Shown: piece by piece, positions 8,575-46,892 of the stretch
How positions within the stretch are numbered: position 1 is the stretch's first letter
Layout of the letters: each line of letters begins with the position of its first letter
NCBI GenBank assembly: GCA_913020665.1
Contig: CAJVZI010000009.1
Location: 1 to 47,454 of the forward strand
DNA: 47,454 nt
Direction of reading: 5' to 3'
Origin: an uncultured bacterium
GTDB taxonomy: Bacteria; Fidelibacterota; Marinisomatia; Marinisomatales; UBA1611
The notes under the pieces: generated by a model
The model's input: the letters and a program-made list of their open reading frames with translations, nothing else
Database searches by the model: none
Told to the model about the DNA's origin: nothing
Made by a program: the position numbers and the translations under genes

Positions 8575-8623
8575 TGCCTAACTCTATTTATTCAAGCTGA
8601 AATTTACCCATCACATCATAAAC

Positions 8624-8650
8624 AAAAAAACCCCGCGAATGCAGGGTTTT
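8624..8650 (-). terminator. Rho-independent terminator after tRNA-Ala
   Basis: Read on the minus strand, AAAACCCTGC, a four-base loop ATTC and GCGGGG form a GC-rich hairpin followed by seven T residues. It lies about 20 bases beyond the tRNA 3' end. Because the left arm also begins with A residues, the hairpin could terminate weakly in the other direction, but no plus-strand gene runs into it. Confidence 0.8.
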
Positions 8651-8670
8651 AAAATAAAAGAATATGTTTG

Positions 8671-22061: not shown

Positions 22062-23111
22062 TTATGGGTAGTTTTTATCTAGCTCATATAAAATGGTGAG
22101 TCCGAGTAACATAGTAAGGGAGAATACAACATTTGCAAAAATGACAGGTAAATTTAAACATAAATAACCGACCATACTCATAACTAAGGATATGCCATGT
22201 AATATGAGTACGGAATGATGAATTGGTATTCCTCTAGATGATAAACGATGGTATGTATGATCACGAGATGCTTTATAAATCGTCTTATTCCTTCTGAGCC
22301 TTGATGAAACAACTAAGATCAGATCAAACAAAGGCACATAAAATATCAATATAGGTACAAACCAAGTGGAAGATTGTATTCCTGTATTTGGATTATAAAC
22401 TATGGCAGTTGCTGCTAATAAGAATCCTAGGGTTTGTGCTCCAGAATCGCCTAAAAATAGCTTAGCAGGGTATGAATTAAAAAAATATAATCCAATGCAG
22501 ATACCCAATAGTATAGCACAAAAGTAAATAATAACTATCTGCCCCGTAGTTAATGAGATGACTAAAAAGAATGCGGCTGATAAGCCACTCAATCCAACAG
22601 ACAGTCCATCAGAACTATCTATAAAATTGAATGCATTTGTCAATGTTACCACCCATAAGATCGTTATCAAGAGATTAAGCCAATTATCTAAATTCGACCC
22701 AGTCCTATAAATGAATTCAGGAGAATCAAATATATTGACCTGCACACCTAAATAGATCAAAACTATAGCTCCAATGATCTGGCCTATCAACTTCAGTGTT
22801 GGTGTAAGATTTATATAATCATCTATGAGACCAAAGATACCGATTATACAGCCTGAAACTAGTATTGCTTTTATCTCTGTATCTTGCCACATACCTGTAA
22901 TGATCATCATTATGATCATAGTGTCTATCAATACAACTCCCCCCGTAAGTGGCACCGCATTGCTATGATTTTTATGCTCAGCGCTCCCTGGAATGTCCAT
23001 CAATCCTACCCGTGGTGCTATTTTAATACTAAACCATCCTAAAACGACTGATATCGTAATGCTACCCAAAAGTAAAAGCATAACATTATCCATGTTTTGA
23101 AATTGTTCCAT
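22062..23111 (-). CDS. Undecaprenyl-phosphate sugar-1-phosphate transferase, WecA/TagO-like
   Basis: A 349-residue membrane protein with about eleven hydrophobic segments, of the MraY/WecA superfamily. Conserved cytoplasmic-loop motifs are HKNHSNAVPLTGG, the Asp pair in GLIDDYINLTPTLKL (Asp97-Asp98), NAFNFIDSSDGL (159-170), FLGDSGAQTLGF and DHTYHRLSSRGI. It moves a sugar phosphate, probably a HexNAc, from UDP-sugar to the polyprenyl phosphate carrier and so starts a surface glycan. The usual NxxDGxDG core reads D-S-S-D-G here, with the first Gly changed to Ser but both Asp retained. It abuts the glycosyltransferase stop and leads into accA after five bases. Confidence 0.88.
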   Translation of the reverse strand: MEQFQNMDNVMLLLLGSITISVVLGWFSIKIAPRVGLMDIPGSAEHKNHSNAVPLTGGVVLIDTMIIMMIITGMWQDTEIKAILVSGCIIGIFGLIDDYINLTPTLKLIGQIIGAIVLIYLGVQVNIFDSPEFIYRTGSNLDNWLNLLITILWVVTLTNAFNFIDSSDGLSVGLSGLSAAFFLVISLTTGQIVIIYFCAILLGICIGLYFFNSYPAKLFLGDSGAQTLGFLLAATAIVYNPNTGIQSSTWFVPILIFYVPLFDLILVVSSRLRRNKTIYKASRDHTYHRLSSRGIPIHHSVLILHGISLVMSMVGYLCLNLPVIFANVVFSLTMLLGLTILYELDKNYP

Positions 23112-36198: not shown

Positions 36199-37806
36199 TT
36201 ATTCTGATTGAAAATGATTTACTATCGGAAAGCGTCTTCCCATACCAAATGCTTTAGATGACACTCTAAGCCCGGGGGCAGCTTGTCGACGCTTGTATTC
36301 ATTGATTCTAATCCTGTTGTATATCGAATTTACTAGATCTTTATCAATCCCATTCTGCACTAATTCATTTATGGTTTTTCCATCCTCTACAATAGCGTCA
36401 ACAAGTGGACTCACAATATCATAATCAAAAGGGTCCACTTGGTCTGGTGCTAATTCTGCTGAAGGTGGTTTATTAAGAGTTCCCAAAGGTATGCGTCCTG
36501 GGTATATAGTATTGATCCAATGAGACAATGCGTAAACATCTGATTTACTAAGATCGGAAATAACTGAGAGTCCACCACTCATATCGCCATATAATGTACA
36601 ATATCCTAAGGCCAGTTCTGTTTTATTTCCTGTAGATAAGACCATCCACCCAAATTTATTTGAAAGTGCCATTAACAGGTTGCCTCTAATACGTGATTGG
36701 ATATTCTCTTCTGCAACATTACGATCTGTACCTAGAAAATGAGGATGTAATAATGACTCTAATTCATCTACAGCTTCTTGTATTGGTATTATCTTATAAT
36801 CAATCTCTAAATTATTAACTAATTCTTTGGCATCTGATAAACTGTGTTCACTAGAATACTTTGAAGGTAGTGATATAGCATGAACCTTATCATGCCCTAA
36901 AGCATCAGCAGCTATAGAGGCAACTAATGCACTATCAATACCACCAGATAAACCTAGAACCGCGTCCGTATGCCCAGTTTTAAGAAAATAATCTTTTAAT
37001 CCTAAACATAGCGCATTATAAATTTTTTCTTCTCTAGGCTTATGAGCTACATTTACTTCTTTTTCTAATTTTGAATCGACCAAAACTATATCTTCTTCAA
37101 ATGCTTCACCACATCCAATAAGAATACCATTACTTGAAAATGCCATTGACTGACCATCAAAGATCAGCTCATCTTGGCCTCCTATGGAATTACAGTACAT
37201 AAATGGTAACTGAGTTTGTCTAACTTTATCTAGAATAACATCTTGTCTTTTTTGTAAACGTTCTTCATGATAAGGCGATGCTGAGATATTAATTATAATC
37301 TCTGCACCAAGTTTTTTTTGAATTGCACTTACTTTACAGTCATAATCTTCATCCCATAGGTCTTCACAGATCTGTAATCCTATTTTCATAACACCACCAT
37401 GGTTGGGTACAGTGACCACCTTAGGATTTTCACCGCTATTAAAATAACGCTCTTCATCAAAAACATCATATGTAGGCAAAAGGATCTTATCACATGATGA
37501 TTGAACCTTGCCATTATAACAAACTGCTGCTGAATTATAAATATGACTACCTTCTTTTCTAATATAACCAAGTATCAATGGGATTTTCGACTCTAATGCA
37601 ATACTATTTAAAACTGTAAGATTTTCTTCTATAAACCCACCATCTAGCAATAGATCTTGTGGAGGATAACCAGATATGCATAACTCTGGAAATACCACAA
37701 TATTTGCACTTTTATCGATGCATTTTAAATAATACTTTAATATTTTATCTCGATTATATCGAAAATCACCTACAATCGTATTTATTTGGCAAAGTGCTAT
37801 TTTCAT
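36199..37806 (-). CDS. nadE: Glutamine-dependent NAD+ synthetase
   Basis: A 535-residue two-domain enzyme. The N-terminal nitrilase-type glutaminase has the full Glu-Lys-Cys triad: Glu41 in VVFPELCISGYPP, Lys107 in CDKILLPTYDVF and Cys147 in LQICEDLWDE. The C-terminal synthetase domain has the ATP-binding P-loop LGLSGGIDSALV (Ser-Gly-Gly-Ile-Asp-Ser at 287-292) and STGNKTELALGYCTLYGDMS. It converts nicotinate adenine dinucleotide to NAD+ with ammonia from glutamine. Length matches the compact bacterial form. It overlaps the acylphosphatase stop by four bases. Confidence 0.97.
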   Translation of the reverse strand: MKIALCQINTIVGDFRYNRDKILKYYLKCIDKSANIVVFPELCISGYPPQDLLLDGGFIEENLTVLNSIALESKIPLILGYIRKEGSHIYNSAAVCYNGKVQSSCDKILLPTYDVFDEERYFNSGENPKVVTVPNHGGVMKIGLQICEDLWDEDYDCKVSAIQKKLGAEIIINISASPYHEERLQKRQDVILDKVRQTQLPFMYCNSIGGQDELIFDGQSMAFSSNGILIGCGEAFEEDIVLVDSKLEKEVNVAHKPREEKIYNALCLGLKDYFLKTGHTDAVLGLSGGIDSALVASIAADALGHDKVHAISLPSKYSSEHSLSDAKELVNNLEIDYKIIPIQEAVDELESLLHPHFLGTDRNVAEENIQSRIRGNLLMALSNKFGWMVLSTGNKTELALGYCTLYGDMSGGLSVISDLSKSDVYALSHWINTIYPGRIPLGTLNKPPSAELAPDQVDPFDYDIVSPLVDAIVEDGKTINELVQNGIDKDLVNSIYNRIRINEYKRRQAAPGLRVSSKAFGMGRRFPIVNHFQSE

Positions 37807-43369: not shown

Positions 43370-45205
43370 TTAAATAGTTTTTGCCAGCTTGATTATCTCT
43401 TTTGCGATTTTAATGGGTATCCCAGTCTCAGTATTGATTACTTCTGGAGTCATTTTTGATATTTGCTCAGGTCCATCAAATGCAATCAATAATTTCTCTT
43501 GTCTTTTTTTACCCATCCCCTTCAAACTTGAAAAAATAGATTCACTCATTGTCTTATTTCTTTTCTGTTTTTGGTATGTTATTGCAAATCTATGAGCTTC
43601 ATCTCTTATACGTTTCAAAAGGATCAAACCAGGACTTTGCTTATGAATGATCTGTGGTTCGGAATTACCGGGTACAAAGACCTCTTCCAATCTCTTTGCT
43701 AATCCAATAATAGGTATATAGTCTAAACCAAGTTCCCGCAAGGCAGAGACAGCCATACTAAGCTGGCCTTTACCACCATCAATCAAAATAAGGTCGGGTA
43801 ATGGATCATCTTGATCTTTTACTCGTTTATACCTTCTAAATACCACTTCTCTCATTGCTGCAAAATCATCGATTCCTTTAATTGATTTTATCTTGAATTT
43901 TCTATATTCAGATTTTCTGGGACGCGCATCAATAAAACAGACCAGTGATGCAACATTGTTTGTGCCTCCAAGATGCGATATATCAAAAGCCTCTATTCTC
44001 CTAGGAGGAATTTCTAGTGAGAGATCATCTCTCAATTGTTCAAGTGTCTTTGGTACAAGGTCCTTCCTTTTTTCTCTATTAAGAAGCCATTCTCCTAGTT
44101 GCAATCTTGCATTCTGTTTTGTAATTCTTAATTCTTTAGCTTTTTCACCTCTTTTAGGGTAAATAAATTTGATTTTACCGCCCCTTTTCTCCTTTAGCCA
44201 GGCAATCAGTTGCATATCATCAATTGGCATCTCTTCTAAAGATATTTCTCCTGGTATAAAGTCGCTATCTAAATAGAACCTAGTTATAATTGTTTTAAGG
44301 GTTTTTGAATCATTACTATCTAGATTCTTAAGATTGAGCTTATCACGACTAAATATCCTCCCATTTCTTATTCTTAGTACAATAGCAACACCTAGTGTGT
44401 CTTTTCTTTCCAGAACAATAATATCGCGTTCTTGAAAATCAGTAGCAACATGACTCTGATTTTCCTTGAATGACCTAATTGAATTGACCTGGTCTCTATA
44501 AATAGCAGCTTCTTCATACTTTTGCTCATTTGATGCCTTATTCATCATATCAACAAGATAAGATTCTGTTAATCTTGTTTTACCTTTCATAAAATCTTCA
44601 ATTCTATTGACCATATCCAAATAATTTTCATTCGAGACCAATCCTTCACAAGGGCCCTCACATTTCTTAATATGATAGTCGAGACATAGAGATATTTTCT
44701 TTTCCTTGATTACCTTGTCATCAATAAAATAACTACAGCTCCTAATAGGAAAAACTTTATGTAATGCCTTAAGAATCATTCTTAATCGCCATACATCTGT
44801 AAATGGGCCATAATATCTTGAACCATCCTTAATAATTTTCCTTGTTAGGATAACTTGAGGATAAGGCTCATTAGTAATTCTTATGAATGGGTAAGATTTG
44901 TCATCCCTAAGTTCAATATTATAACGAGGTTGGTATTGCTTTATCATATTTGCTTCCGTCATTAATGCTTCAACCTCATTCCTCACCACTATCCATTCAA
45001 AATCAGTTATATGTTTTAGCATTGTTATATTTTTAGGAGACATCTTATTACTATTTTGGAAATATGATCTTATCCTTGATCTTAAATTTATTGCTTTTCC
45101 AATGTAGATTATTTCACCCTCGGAGTTTAAAAATTGATAAACACCTGGCTCTTGCGGAGAGCGTTTGAGTTTATCTCTAATTATATCATCTATATTGTTT
45201 ACCAT
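43370..45205 (-). CDS. uvrC: Excinuclease ABC subunit C
   Basis: A 611-residue dual-incision nuclease. The N-terminal GIY-YIG domain has PGVYQFLNSEGEIIYIGKA (from residue 20), the UVR domain (about 200-235) pairs with UvrB, the RNase-H-like domain includes EAFDISHLGGTNNVASLVCF (in part) and LILIDGGKGQL, and the C-terminal helix-hairpin-helix is SLKGMGKKRQEKLL. I start at ATG 45205, where the distance to PGVY matches the family; the frame opens at 45229 with eight more residues. Neither start has a strong ribosome binding site. It is divergent from the YDTT-repeat gene. Confidence 0.97.
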   Translation of the reverse strand: MVNNIDDIIRDKLKRSPQEPGVYQFLNSEGEIIYIGKAINLRSRIRSYFQNSNKMSPKNITMLKHITDFEWIVVRNEVEALMTEANMIKQYQPRYNIELRDDKSYPFIRITNEPYPQVILTRKIIKDGSRYYGPFTDVWRLRMILKALHKVFPIRSCSYFIDDKVIKEKKISLCLDYHIKKCEGPCEGLVSNENYLDMVNRIEDFMKGKTRLTESYLVDMMNKASNEQKYEEAAIYRDQVNSIRSFKENQSHVATDFQERDIIVLERKDTLGVAIVLRIRNGRIFSRDKLNLKNLDSNDSKTLKTIITRFYLDSDFIPGEISLEEMPIDDMQLIAWLKEKRGGKIKFIYPKRGEKAKELRITKQNARLQLGEWLLNREKRKDLVPKTLEQLRDDLSLEIPPRRIEAFDISHLGGTNNVASLVCFIDARPRKSEYRKFKIKSIKGIDDFAAMREVVFRRYKRVKDQDDPLPDLILIDGGKGQLSMAVSALRELGLDYIPIIGLAKRLEEVFVPGNSEPQIIHKQSPGLILLKRIRDEAHRFAITYQKQKRNKTMSESIFSSLKGMGKKRQEKLLIAFDGPEQISKMTPEVINTETGIPIKIAKEIIKLAKTI

Positions 45206-45356
45206 AATCGTTGGCAAAATTAACGTCATTGGATAAATGGTATATGAACCAAATTATTTTAGTTAGGCCGCTTAAGATATATGCTCTAACTCTATCTATT
45301 TATGGGACAATGGATTTTTATTTCTTAAAAAATTATTTGTTTTTAAAATCCAGTAT

Positions 45357-45411
45357 GGTTATGCTCGCATATTGAGTGGAATACTCAACTCCGGTAATCC
45401 GAGCATAAACC
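45357..45411 (+). promoter_or_regulatory. Structured leader with two nested hairpins before the YDTT-repeat gene
   Basis: The outer arms GGTTATGCTCG (45357-45367) and CGAGCATAAACC (45400-45411) pair over eleven bases with one bulged A. Inside, TTGAGT and ACTCAA (45372-45377 and 45383-45388) form a second perfect stem with loop GGAAT. An 11-base single-stranded tail CTCCGGTAATC joins them. The outer stem ends just at the ribosome binding site AGGAA (45412-45416), so folding could control translation. No T run follows, so it is not an ordinary terminator. I do not recognise a known riboswitch class. Confidence 0.55.
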
Positions 45412-45428
45412 AGGAAAAACTTATATCT

Positions 45429-46892
45429 ATGCGTAACGTTCAAAAAACGTTGGTTCTCTCTCTGTGTGTTATTCTTATGGCGCAAGAAGAGACCAAGACA
45501 AAAAAAAGAAAGGTCTACAGGACTCAATCAGGAGCCATCATTGAAGCTCCGCGTCCCCTATTTGAGCGATCAGATAAGAAAGAAAAAGTAAAGCCAAAAA
45601 TAAAATCTGAAAAAAGCAAAGCTTTAGCTCGCACAAAAAAGGTTGAGACCACTTATAGAAATGAACTTGATAGTTTAAAAAACTCTGTAGCAATGCTCAT
45701 TAAGCAATCTGAAGAATTAACAAAGAACTATGAAGAGAGACTATCACAAAAATCGTCAGATACGATCTTTGTCTATACCACCCTTTATGATACAACAACT
45801 GTTTTAGATACAACTTATATATATACAAATGCCACTACCACAGTCTATGATACGGTCGTGGTCATTGACAGCATATATATTAAAAGCTTTGACACAACAA
45901 CTGTCGTACAAACTAATTATGATACCGTTTTTGTCATGGATACAACAGTTCTGGTCAATTATGATACAACCGTTATGAAAGATACTGTCTGGGCCTTTGC
46001 ATACGACACGACCTATTATTACGATACTACTTGGGTATATGCTCATGACACAACAGTTGTAAGAGACTCAATATGGCTATTTGCAGTAGATACAGTAAAA
46101 ATATATGATACACTTGTTGTTGCAAATAATGATACCGTAACGATCCATACCTACTCAAGTAAATTTCCAAATAATTTCACACCTGATATGATCGACCAGA
46201 AACAATCTGCATTCCCTAAATACAAGACACTAGGTGATGCACTAAGAGCGCGTGACACGGGTGATAAATCTGCACAAGGCTGGATAAACCAAGCCCTTAA
46301 TGCTGCTGGCGGTGATTGGACCCGCGCCGAAAGGGAGTATAAAAAATTACAGGAAATTTATTCTACAGCAATGGTTCAAGCCATTACTAGAGAGCCAAAA
46401 GACCCATCTTTTATTGGCCCTGATATGAAGTATAAAAGTGTGATCTTCGATACACTAAAGATATTAACATTTGATACAACTTTGGTTCAAGACACAGTCA
46501 AAAATCTTGTTAAACAAACTTACGTTAAGTATGATACCTCTATAGTAGATAGACGTCGAGAGGTAATCGCAAACACAACACCTCCTGGACACGAATTAAT
46601 AATCAAGTATCACAGAAATGGACGCGTTAAAGAAAGAGGTCTAATGAAGGGTAGTAAAAAGAATGGAGAGTGGATACAATACGATTTTAAAGGGGTGCCA
46701 TTAAGAAAATCATTGTATGAAATGGGAAGATTGGTCGATGACGAGTTAGTTGTTGTTGATGGTCAAGAAGAAAATCCTATGGAAGATTTAAAAAAGTTCA
46801 CAAAGAAAAATCGAAAGAAGGATAAAGATAAATCCAAGGTAAAAAGGTCAAAAAGTATATTTCAGCTCATTCTTCCTTGGAATAGAGACTAA
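45429..46892 (+). CDS. Exported YDTT-repeat protein with C-terminal YwqK/MORN-like region
   Basis: A 487-residue protein. I start at ATG 45429, giving the signal peptide RNVQKTLVLSLCVILMAQ; the frame is open from 45372, but that lies inside the hairpin leader. A basic region (about 25-75) and a coiled-coil-like helix (NSVAMLIKQSEELTKNYEERL in part) come first. Residues about 110-250 are a repetitive beta-rich tract of YDTT, MDTT, FDTT, YDTV and similar units, nearly free of Gly and Pro. A helical domain follows, then further DTT units. Near 405-455 is a YwqK/MORN-type repeat (YHRNGRVKERGLMKGSKKNG, WIQYDFKGVPLRKS). The tail is very Lys-rich. Function unknown; a stalk- or fibre-like surface role is a guess. 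Confidence 0.7.
   Translation: MRNVQKTLVLSLCVILMAQEETKTKKRKVYRTQSGAIIEAPRPLFERSDKKEKVKPKIKSEKSKALARTKKVETTYRNELDSLKNSVAMLIKQSEELTKNYEERLSQKSSDTIFVYTTLYDTTTVLDTTYIYTNATTTVYDTVVVIDSIYIKSFDTTTVVQTNYDTVFVMDTTVLVNYDTTVMKDTVWAFAYDTTYYYDTTWVYAHDTTVVRDSIWLFAVDTVKIYDTLVVANNDTVTIHTYSSKFPNNFTPDMIDQKQSAFPKYKTLGDALRARDTGDKSAQGWINQALNAAGGDWTRAEREYKKLQEIYSTAMVQAITREPKDPSFIGPDMKYKSVIFDTLKILTFDTTLVQDTVKNLVKQTYVKYDTSIVDRRREVIANTTPPGHELIIKYHRNGRVKERGLMKGSKKNGEWIQYDFKGVPLRKSLYEMGRLVDDELVVVDGQEENPMEDLKKFTKKNRKKDKDKSKVKRSKSIFQLILPWNRD

Follow-up and report, generated by a model that had tools for sequence, protein, structure and literature searches.

Conserved promoter-like boxes and a small hairpin upstream of the YDTT-repeat protein gene in one family of Candidatus Neomarinimicrobiota

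The window, by which we mean the whole stretch of 47,454 nucleotides that was analyzed, has its relatives among MAGs of Candidatus Neomarinimicrobiota (SAR406), for example TMED46. It contains the gene order uvrC, YDTT-repeat gene, methylmalonyl-CoA epimerase, which is syntenic within one family of the phylum. At 13 loci uvrC lies upstream on the opposite strand, and the epimerase gene is found downstream wherever the contig extends far enough. The YDTT gene has matches in 16 of the 245 genomes of the phylum, all of them within that family. Its product has an apparent signal peptide, judged by eye, and no relative above cut-off in Pfam, NCBIfam or the solved structures. In genus g5 a frame of about 1450 codons (G006:C221, G016:C2; L018, L019, L023, L024) includes the homologue and holds many additional matches to the C-terminal repeat of the YDTT protein. 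The region upstream of the YDTT gene, which is conserved within the syntenic family, has the following features, all on the forward strand.

45336 to 45339, forward strand: TTTG, putative -33 box (or -35 box, with TTG at 45337-45339); its TTG keeps a constant spacing to the second box
45357 to 45367, forward strand: 5' arm of the outer inverted repeat, GGTTATGCTCG
45360 to 45367, forward strand: TATGCTCG, putative -7 box (or -10 hexamer TATGCT, 45360-45365), conserved as TAnnnT
45372, within about 2 nt, forward strand: predicted transcript start, placed from the position of the F. psychrophilum -7 box
45372 to 45388, forward strand: inner hairpin TTGAGT-GGAAT-ACTCAA, six perfect pairs and the loop GGAAT
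45389 to 45399, forward strand: linker CTCCGGTAATC
45393 to 45400, forward strand: GGTAATCC, conserved 8-nt element, exact or as a close variant in ten orthologs
45400 to 45411, forward strand: 3' arm of the outer inverted repeat, CGAGCATAAACC, with pairs counted in eight orthologs
45412 to 45416, forward strand: AGGAA, doubtful Shine-Dalgarno sequence, 13 nt from the ATG and not conserved
45429 to 46892, forward strand: YDTT-repeat protein gene, 487 aa, ATG at 45429

The outer stem, in which GGTTATGCTCG pairs with CGAGCATAAACC, consists of 11 pairs and one bulged A. The original prediction had described a nested hairpin leader at 45357-45411, and its outer stem, inner hairpin and linker, like the AGGAA and ATG that follow, are all present as claimed. 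The 66-nt element has a minimum free energy of -20.1 kcal/mol (z -3.8), and its 86-nt context has a z-score of -3.07. That such a stem is not expected by chance was not confirmed: in a scan of all 66-nt stretches on both strands of the window the element ranks 13th in stability, and about a dozen other stretches fold as strongly or more so, several of them within predicted genes. The hairpin alone is within the yield of such a search. The lowest z-scores among the window candidates tested belong to 22567-22632 on the reverse strand (-28.5 kcal/mol, z -6.0), inside a predicted gene of that strand, and 36391-36456 on the forward strand (-23.1 kcal/mol, z -6.2), antisense to a predicted reverse-strand gene. 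The prediction had matched the shape to no known class, and the Rfam search was likewise empty, both in the window at gathering score and for the element up to E 10. An intrinsic terminator or attenuator was rejected, as no G+C-rich stem with a T run occurs in 45200-45480 on either strand. A short leader peptide (ATG 45355 or 45361 to TGA) was also rejected; its coding is not conserved and it lies upstream of the predicted start.

Alignment of the upstream regions of 13 orthologs reveals that the best-conserved parts are the promoter-like boxes and GGTAATCC, not the stems. The first conserved block consists of A/T tracts followed by ATTTG, 20 nt and TAnnnT; the second is GGTAATCCRAGnAAAAA. TTG is kept in 11 of the 13 orthologs, TAnnnT (as TATGCT, TATTCT, TACAAT or TAGCAT) in 12, and both in 11. 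L012 was not counted, because its TTG is unidentifiable, its TATTCT is suggested by the alignment only, and the pattern search chose another site. The spacer between the boxes is 20 nt counted from TTG, equal to 17 if counted from TTGnnn, and 21 nt in L136, a true ortholog situated at a contig end. GGTAATCC is exact in eight loci, appears as AGTAATCC in L007 and has decayed to AGTAGTTC in L013, so that the impression of a conserved linker, formed from one sequence, is well borne out among the orthologs. The distance from TAnnnT to the start of GGTAATCC is 27 nt in nine loci and 26 nt in one, and it is near-constant although the intervening hairpin sequence differs among genera. L010 and L014 have lost the hairpin and GGTAATCC and still keep TTG and TAnnnT.

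Five species, spread over three genera (L004, L005, L006, L008 and L009), have retained the inner hairpin, with varying loops: GGA is found only in L004 and L005, and the loops of L006, L008 and L009 are CGTAA, ACATT and GGTAT. Among 11 orthologs tested, folding is more stable than that of shuffled sequences in L004, L005 and L006, and marginally in L008. Excess stability is absent from L007, L009, L011, L013, L010, L014 and L016, that is, from most orthologs outside genus g1, L006 and L008. The motif is single-copy in each genome and restricted to the YDTT locus of one family; searches across the 245 genomes of the phylum gave no convincing copy elsewhere, and within its own genome the element is neither a dispersed repeat nor duplicated. 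Exact GGTAATCCRAGNA matches elsewhere are located in long open frames and do not represent the motif. Weak model matches at L133 and L134 (genus g10), L135 and L138 were rejected; they fall within coding frames or opposite to them, or have a different context.

The leader was said to end at a ribosome binding site. In genomes of the family, AGGA clusters 4-11 nt before the start codon; at the YDTT gene 13 nt separate its end from the ATG, and most orthologs lack AGGA at this place. The distance and the missing counterparts make a Shine-Dalgarno function doubtful here and leave this part of the prediction weak. No conserved helix covers AGGA, which argues against an RNA thermometer, one of the three roles originally proposed.

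The two boxes resemble a Bacteroidetes promoter. In F. psychrophilum the TAnnTTTG box of primary sigma factor promoters spans -12 to -5 (PMC9723704). If TATGCTCG occupies the same positions, +1 falls on 45372, where the inner hairpin begins, and TTTG lies at -36 to -33. The second box is situated within the 5' arm of the outer stem, so with a start near 45372 this arm would be outside the mRNA and the outer stem would not form there. Similar patterns are enriched in the family. In the upstream regions of 587 genes (G000, G001, G002, G024), with a dispersed terminator-like repeat masked, TTG-N21-TAnnTT occurs 41 times against 19.4 expected (z 5.3), TTG-N20-TAnnTT 23 times against 16.8, and TAnnTTTG 86 times against 62.7 (z 3.3). 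The enrichment of TTG-N21-TAnnTT suggests that Neomarinimicrobiota use a Bacteroidetes-like promoter code. The genome-wide signal peaks at N21, whereas the locus has N20. The second box of the locus is imperfect, with CT where the consensus has TT, and a scan for sigma-70-type promoters found none at the locus; for these two reasons we infer a promoter here and do not take it as proven.

At 8590-8660 on the reverse strand the window also holds a recurring intergenic motif, a terminator-like hairpin ending in GGGGTTTT(T)TTG, then about 10-16 nt, then TGATGGGTAgaTTT. In the window it comes after a tRNA gene, and it recurs in related genomes, for example at L087, L094, L096, L115 and L119. The most over-represented gapped word upstream of genes is GGGG-N2-TTT (24 against 4.6). 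The motif may represent a terminator whose tail is conserved, or else a small repeat.

The region upstream of the YDTT gene is a conserved cis-element of that gene. We hold, with slightly better than even confidence, that it comprises the promoter and 5' UTR of the YDTT gene, with a message that starts at the inner hairpin and carries GGUAAUCC near +21. Several observations favor this reading: the boxes are conserved even in the two orthologs that lack the hairpin and GGTAATCC; similar patterns are enriched upstream of the family's genes; the geometry matches that of Flavobacterium -33/-7 promoters; the box-to-GGTAATCC distance is constant despite turnover of the hairpin sequence; and excess folding stability is missing from most orthologs. 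Wobble counts on the forward strand point the same way. G.T and A.C cells stand at 7:1 in the inner hairpin versus 4:4 in the outer stem, small numbers that fit an inner hairpin acting as RNA and an outer repeat free of RNA-level selection. The reading is weakened by the CT in the second box, the empty sigma-70-type scan, the genome-wide preference for N21, and covariation of the outer stem beyond a phylogenetic null.

This covariation supports the reading closest to the original prediction, in which transcription begins upstream of 45357, the mRNA folds into the complete nested hairpin, and a protein or ligand that controls YDTT expression recognizes the conserved internal-loop strand GGUAAUCC. 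In an alignment of eight orthologs (A3; the bulge of L005 was shortened by one base by hand), 5 of the 11 outer pairs have changed on both sides. The whole structure has 12 cells with both-sided changes against 5.8 in shuffled alignments, and a covariation score of 0.277 against 0.162 shuffled (0/500) and at most 0.111 when slid. Under a null of independent columns simulated on a tree taken from the protein tree, the outer pairs changed on both sides have P of about 0.005-0.02 and the covariation score was reached in 0/400 simulations; the fraction paired is less unusual (0.02-0.22). In L011 the 5' arm and two letters of the 3' arm are altered in matching fashion. These statistics are optimistic, since the structure had been chosen on the window sequence and the register on the 3' side was in part a manual choice. 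Many pairs are A-U between T-rich and A-rich arms. Covariation of the outer stem is moderate, and its stability is not conserved. The prediction named a lack of covariation among homologues as its refutation, which is not what is seen. Against the nested leader, besides the seven orthologs with no excess stability, stands the overlap of its 5' arm with a promoter-like box that is conserved where the stem is lost. We consider it less likely than the promoter reading, and the main rival to it. What survives of the prediction is a conserved cis-element with some compensatory change; its deepest conservation lies in the two boxes, the second of which overlaps the 5' arm, not in the nested stems. 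There is a slim chance that the region is an undescribed regulatory leader RNA of one marine Neomarinimicrobiota family, in which the nested hairpin exposes GGUAAUCC for recognition by a protein or ligand. Such a leader could also be a two-state switch whose 5' arm pairs with either GUAAUCC or the distal 3' arm. An alternative pairing, between GRUUAU and GUAAUC, holds in 97.9% of cells; with zero both-sided changes it adds no covariation support. A riboswitch in particular is disfavored, as there is no Rfam match and the element is found at one locus per genome, before one gene, with no convincing match elsewhere in the phylum. A promoter with a short structured message start is more likely than a new riboswitch; the hairpin itself is really present and partly conserved.

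The inverted repeat could also be read as DNA, bound by a transcription factor that represses or activates the promoter. Its halves would lie over the -10 region and near +30, or the half-sites would be GRTTAY and RTAATC, 37 bp apart, and the constant spacing would reflect helical phase. The constant box-to-GGTAATCC distance despite sequence turnover, the retention of the GRTTAT/GTAATC inverted repeat and the wobble cells of the outer stem, which show no strand preference, are all consistent with an operator. We nevertheless judge it improbable, as no regulator is known at the locus and the 32 bp between the arms contain a conserved hairpin, which an operator does not need. Highly improbable is the reading in which the palindromes are accidents that persist in close relatives through short divergence, and the boxes and GGTAATCC owe their conservation to something else. 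The dozen or so equally stable folds in the window and the orthologs without excess stability agree with it; the retention of the inner hairpin across three genera and the excess of covariation over both shuffles and the simulated null do not.

Under the promoter reading, RNA polymerase with a Bacteroidetes-like primary sigma factor would bind TTTG (45336-45339) and TATGCTCG (45360-45367) and begin transcription at about 45372. The mRNA would open with the inner hairpin as a 5'-terminal stem-loop, and GGUAAUCC would come next, about 21 nt into the message. Of the nested structure the mRNA would contain the inner hairpin, linker and 3' arm only; the long outer repeat, part of which would fall in the promoter, would not be an mRNA stem. 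By analogy with E. coli ompA, the terminal hairpin may slow decay of the message, and GGUAAUCC may be the point at which a protein, a small RNA or the ribosome binds. A protein-binding or stabilizing leader is possible.

The object as read is of an ordinary kind: a promoter that is conserved and leads into a short structured 5' UTR. What it offers is a defined promoter model, TTG-N20/21-TAnnYT, along with a sharply delimited 8-nt leader element that is conserved, and it is an example of a striking hairpin in a single sequence that overlaps a promoter box. We found no work on such leaders in the host phylum, and a literature search on Marinimicrobia with riboswitch returned nothing relevant. 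Should the outer stem be transcribed after all, the element would be a new lineage-specific leader RNA. We know of no counterpart to an invariant GGUAAUCC after a 5'-terminal hairpin.

Like riboswitches and leaders of the ribosomal-protein type, the locus has an outer stem, a variable inner hairpin, a conserved internal-loop strand and a single gene downstream. It differs from these in its lack of an Rfam match, its restriction to one gene in one bacterial family, the overlap of the 5' arm with a promoter-like box and the absence of a metabolic gene downstream. The window sequence resembles CsrA/RsmA leaders in having one GGA in the loop of the inner hairpin and another in AGGAA; a CsrA-type leader was rejected, since L006, L008 and L009 no longer have GGA in the loop. 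The 5' UTR of E. coli ompA carries a 5'-terminal stem-loop that stabilizes the mRNA, according to the account of Emory et al. 1992 in PMC7509114. The locus is similar in that a hairpin is predicted from the first base of the mRNA and the protein is probably secreted; its hairpin has only 6 pairs, occurs in three genera and takes its 5' position from the predicted start. With Bacteroidetes primary sigma factor promoters (-33 TTG, -7 TAnnTTTG) the locus differs in the CT for TT of its second box, in its host phylum, Neomarinimicrobiota, and in having a predicted start. Provided that transcription starts at 45372, it shares with them a TTTG covering -36 to -33 and a TAnnYTYG-like box covering -12 to -5, and similar boxes are enriched upstream of genes in the Neomarinimicrobiota family.
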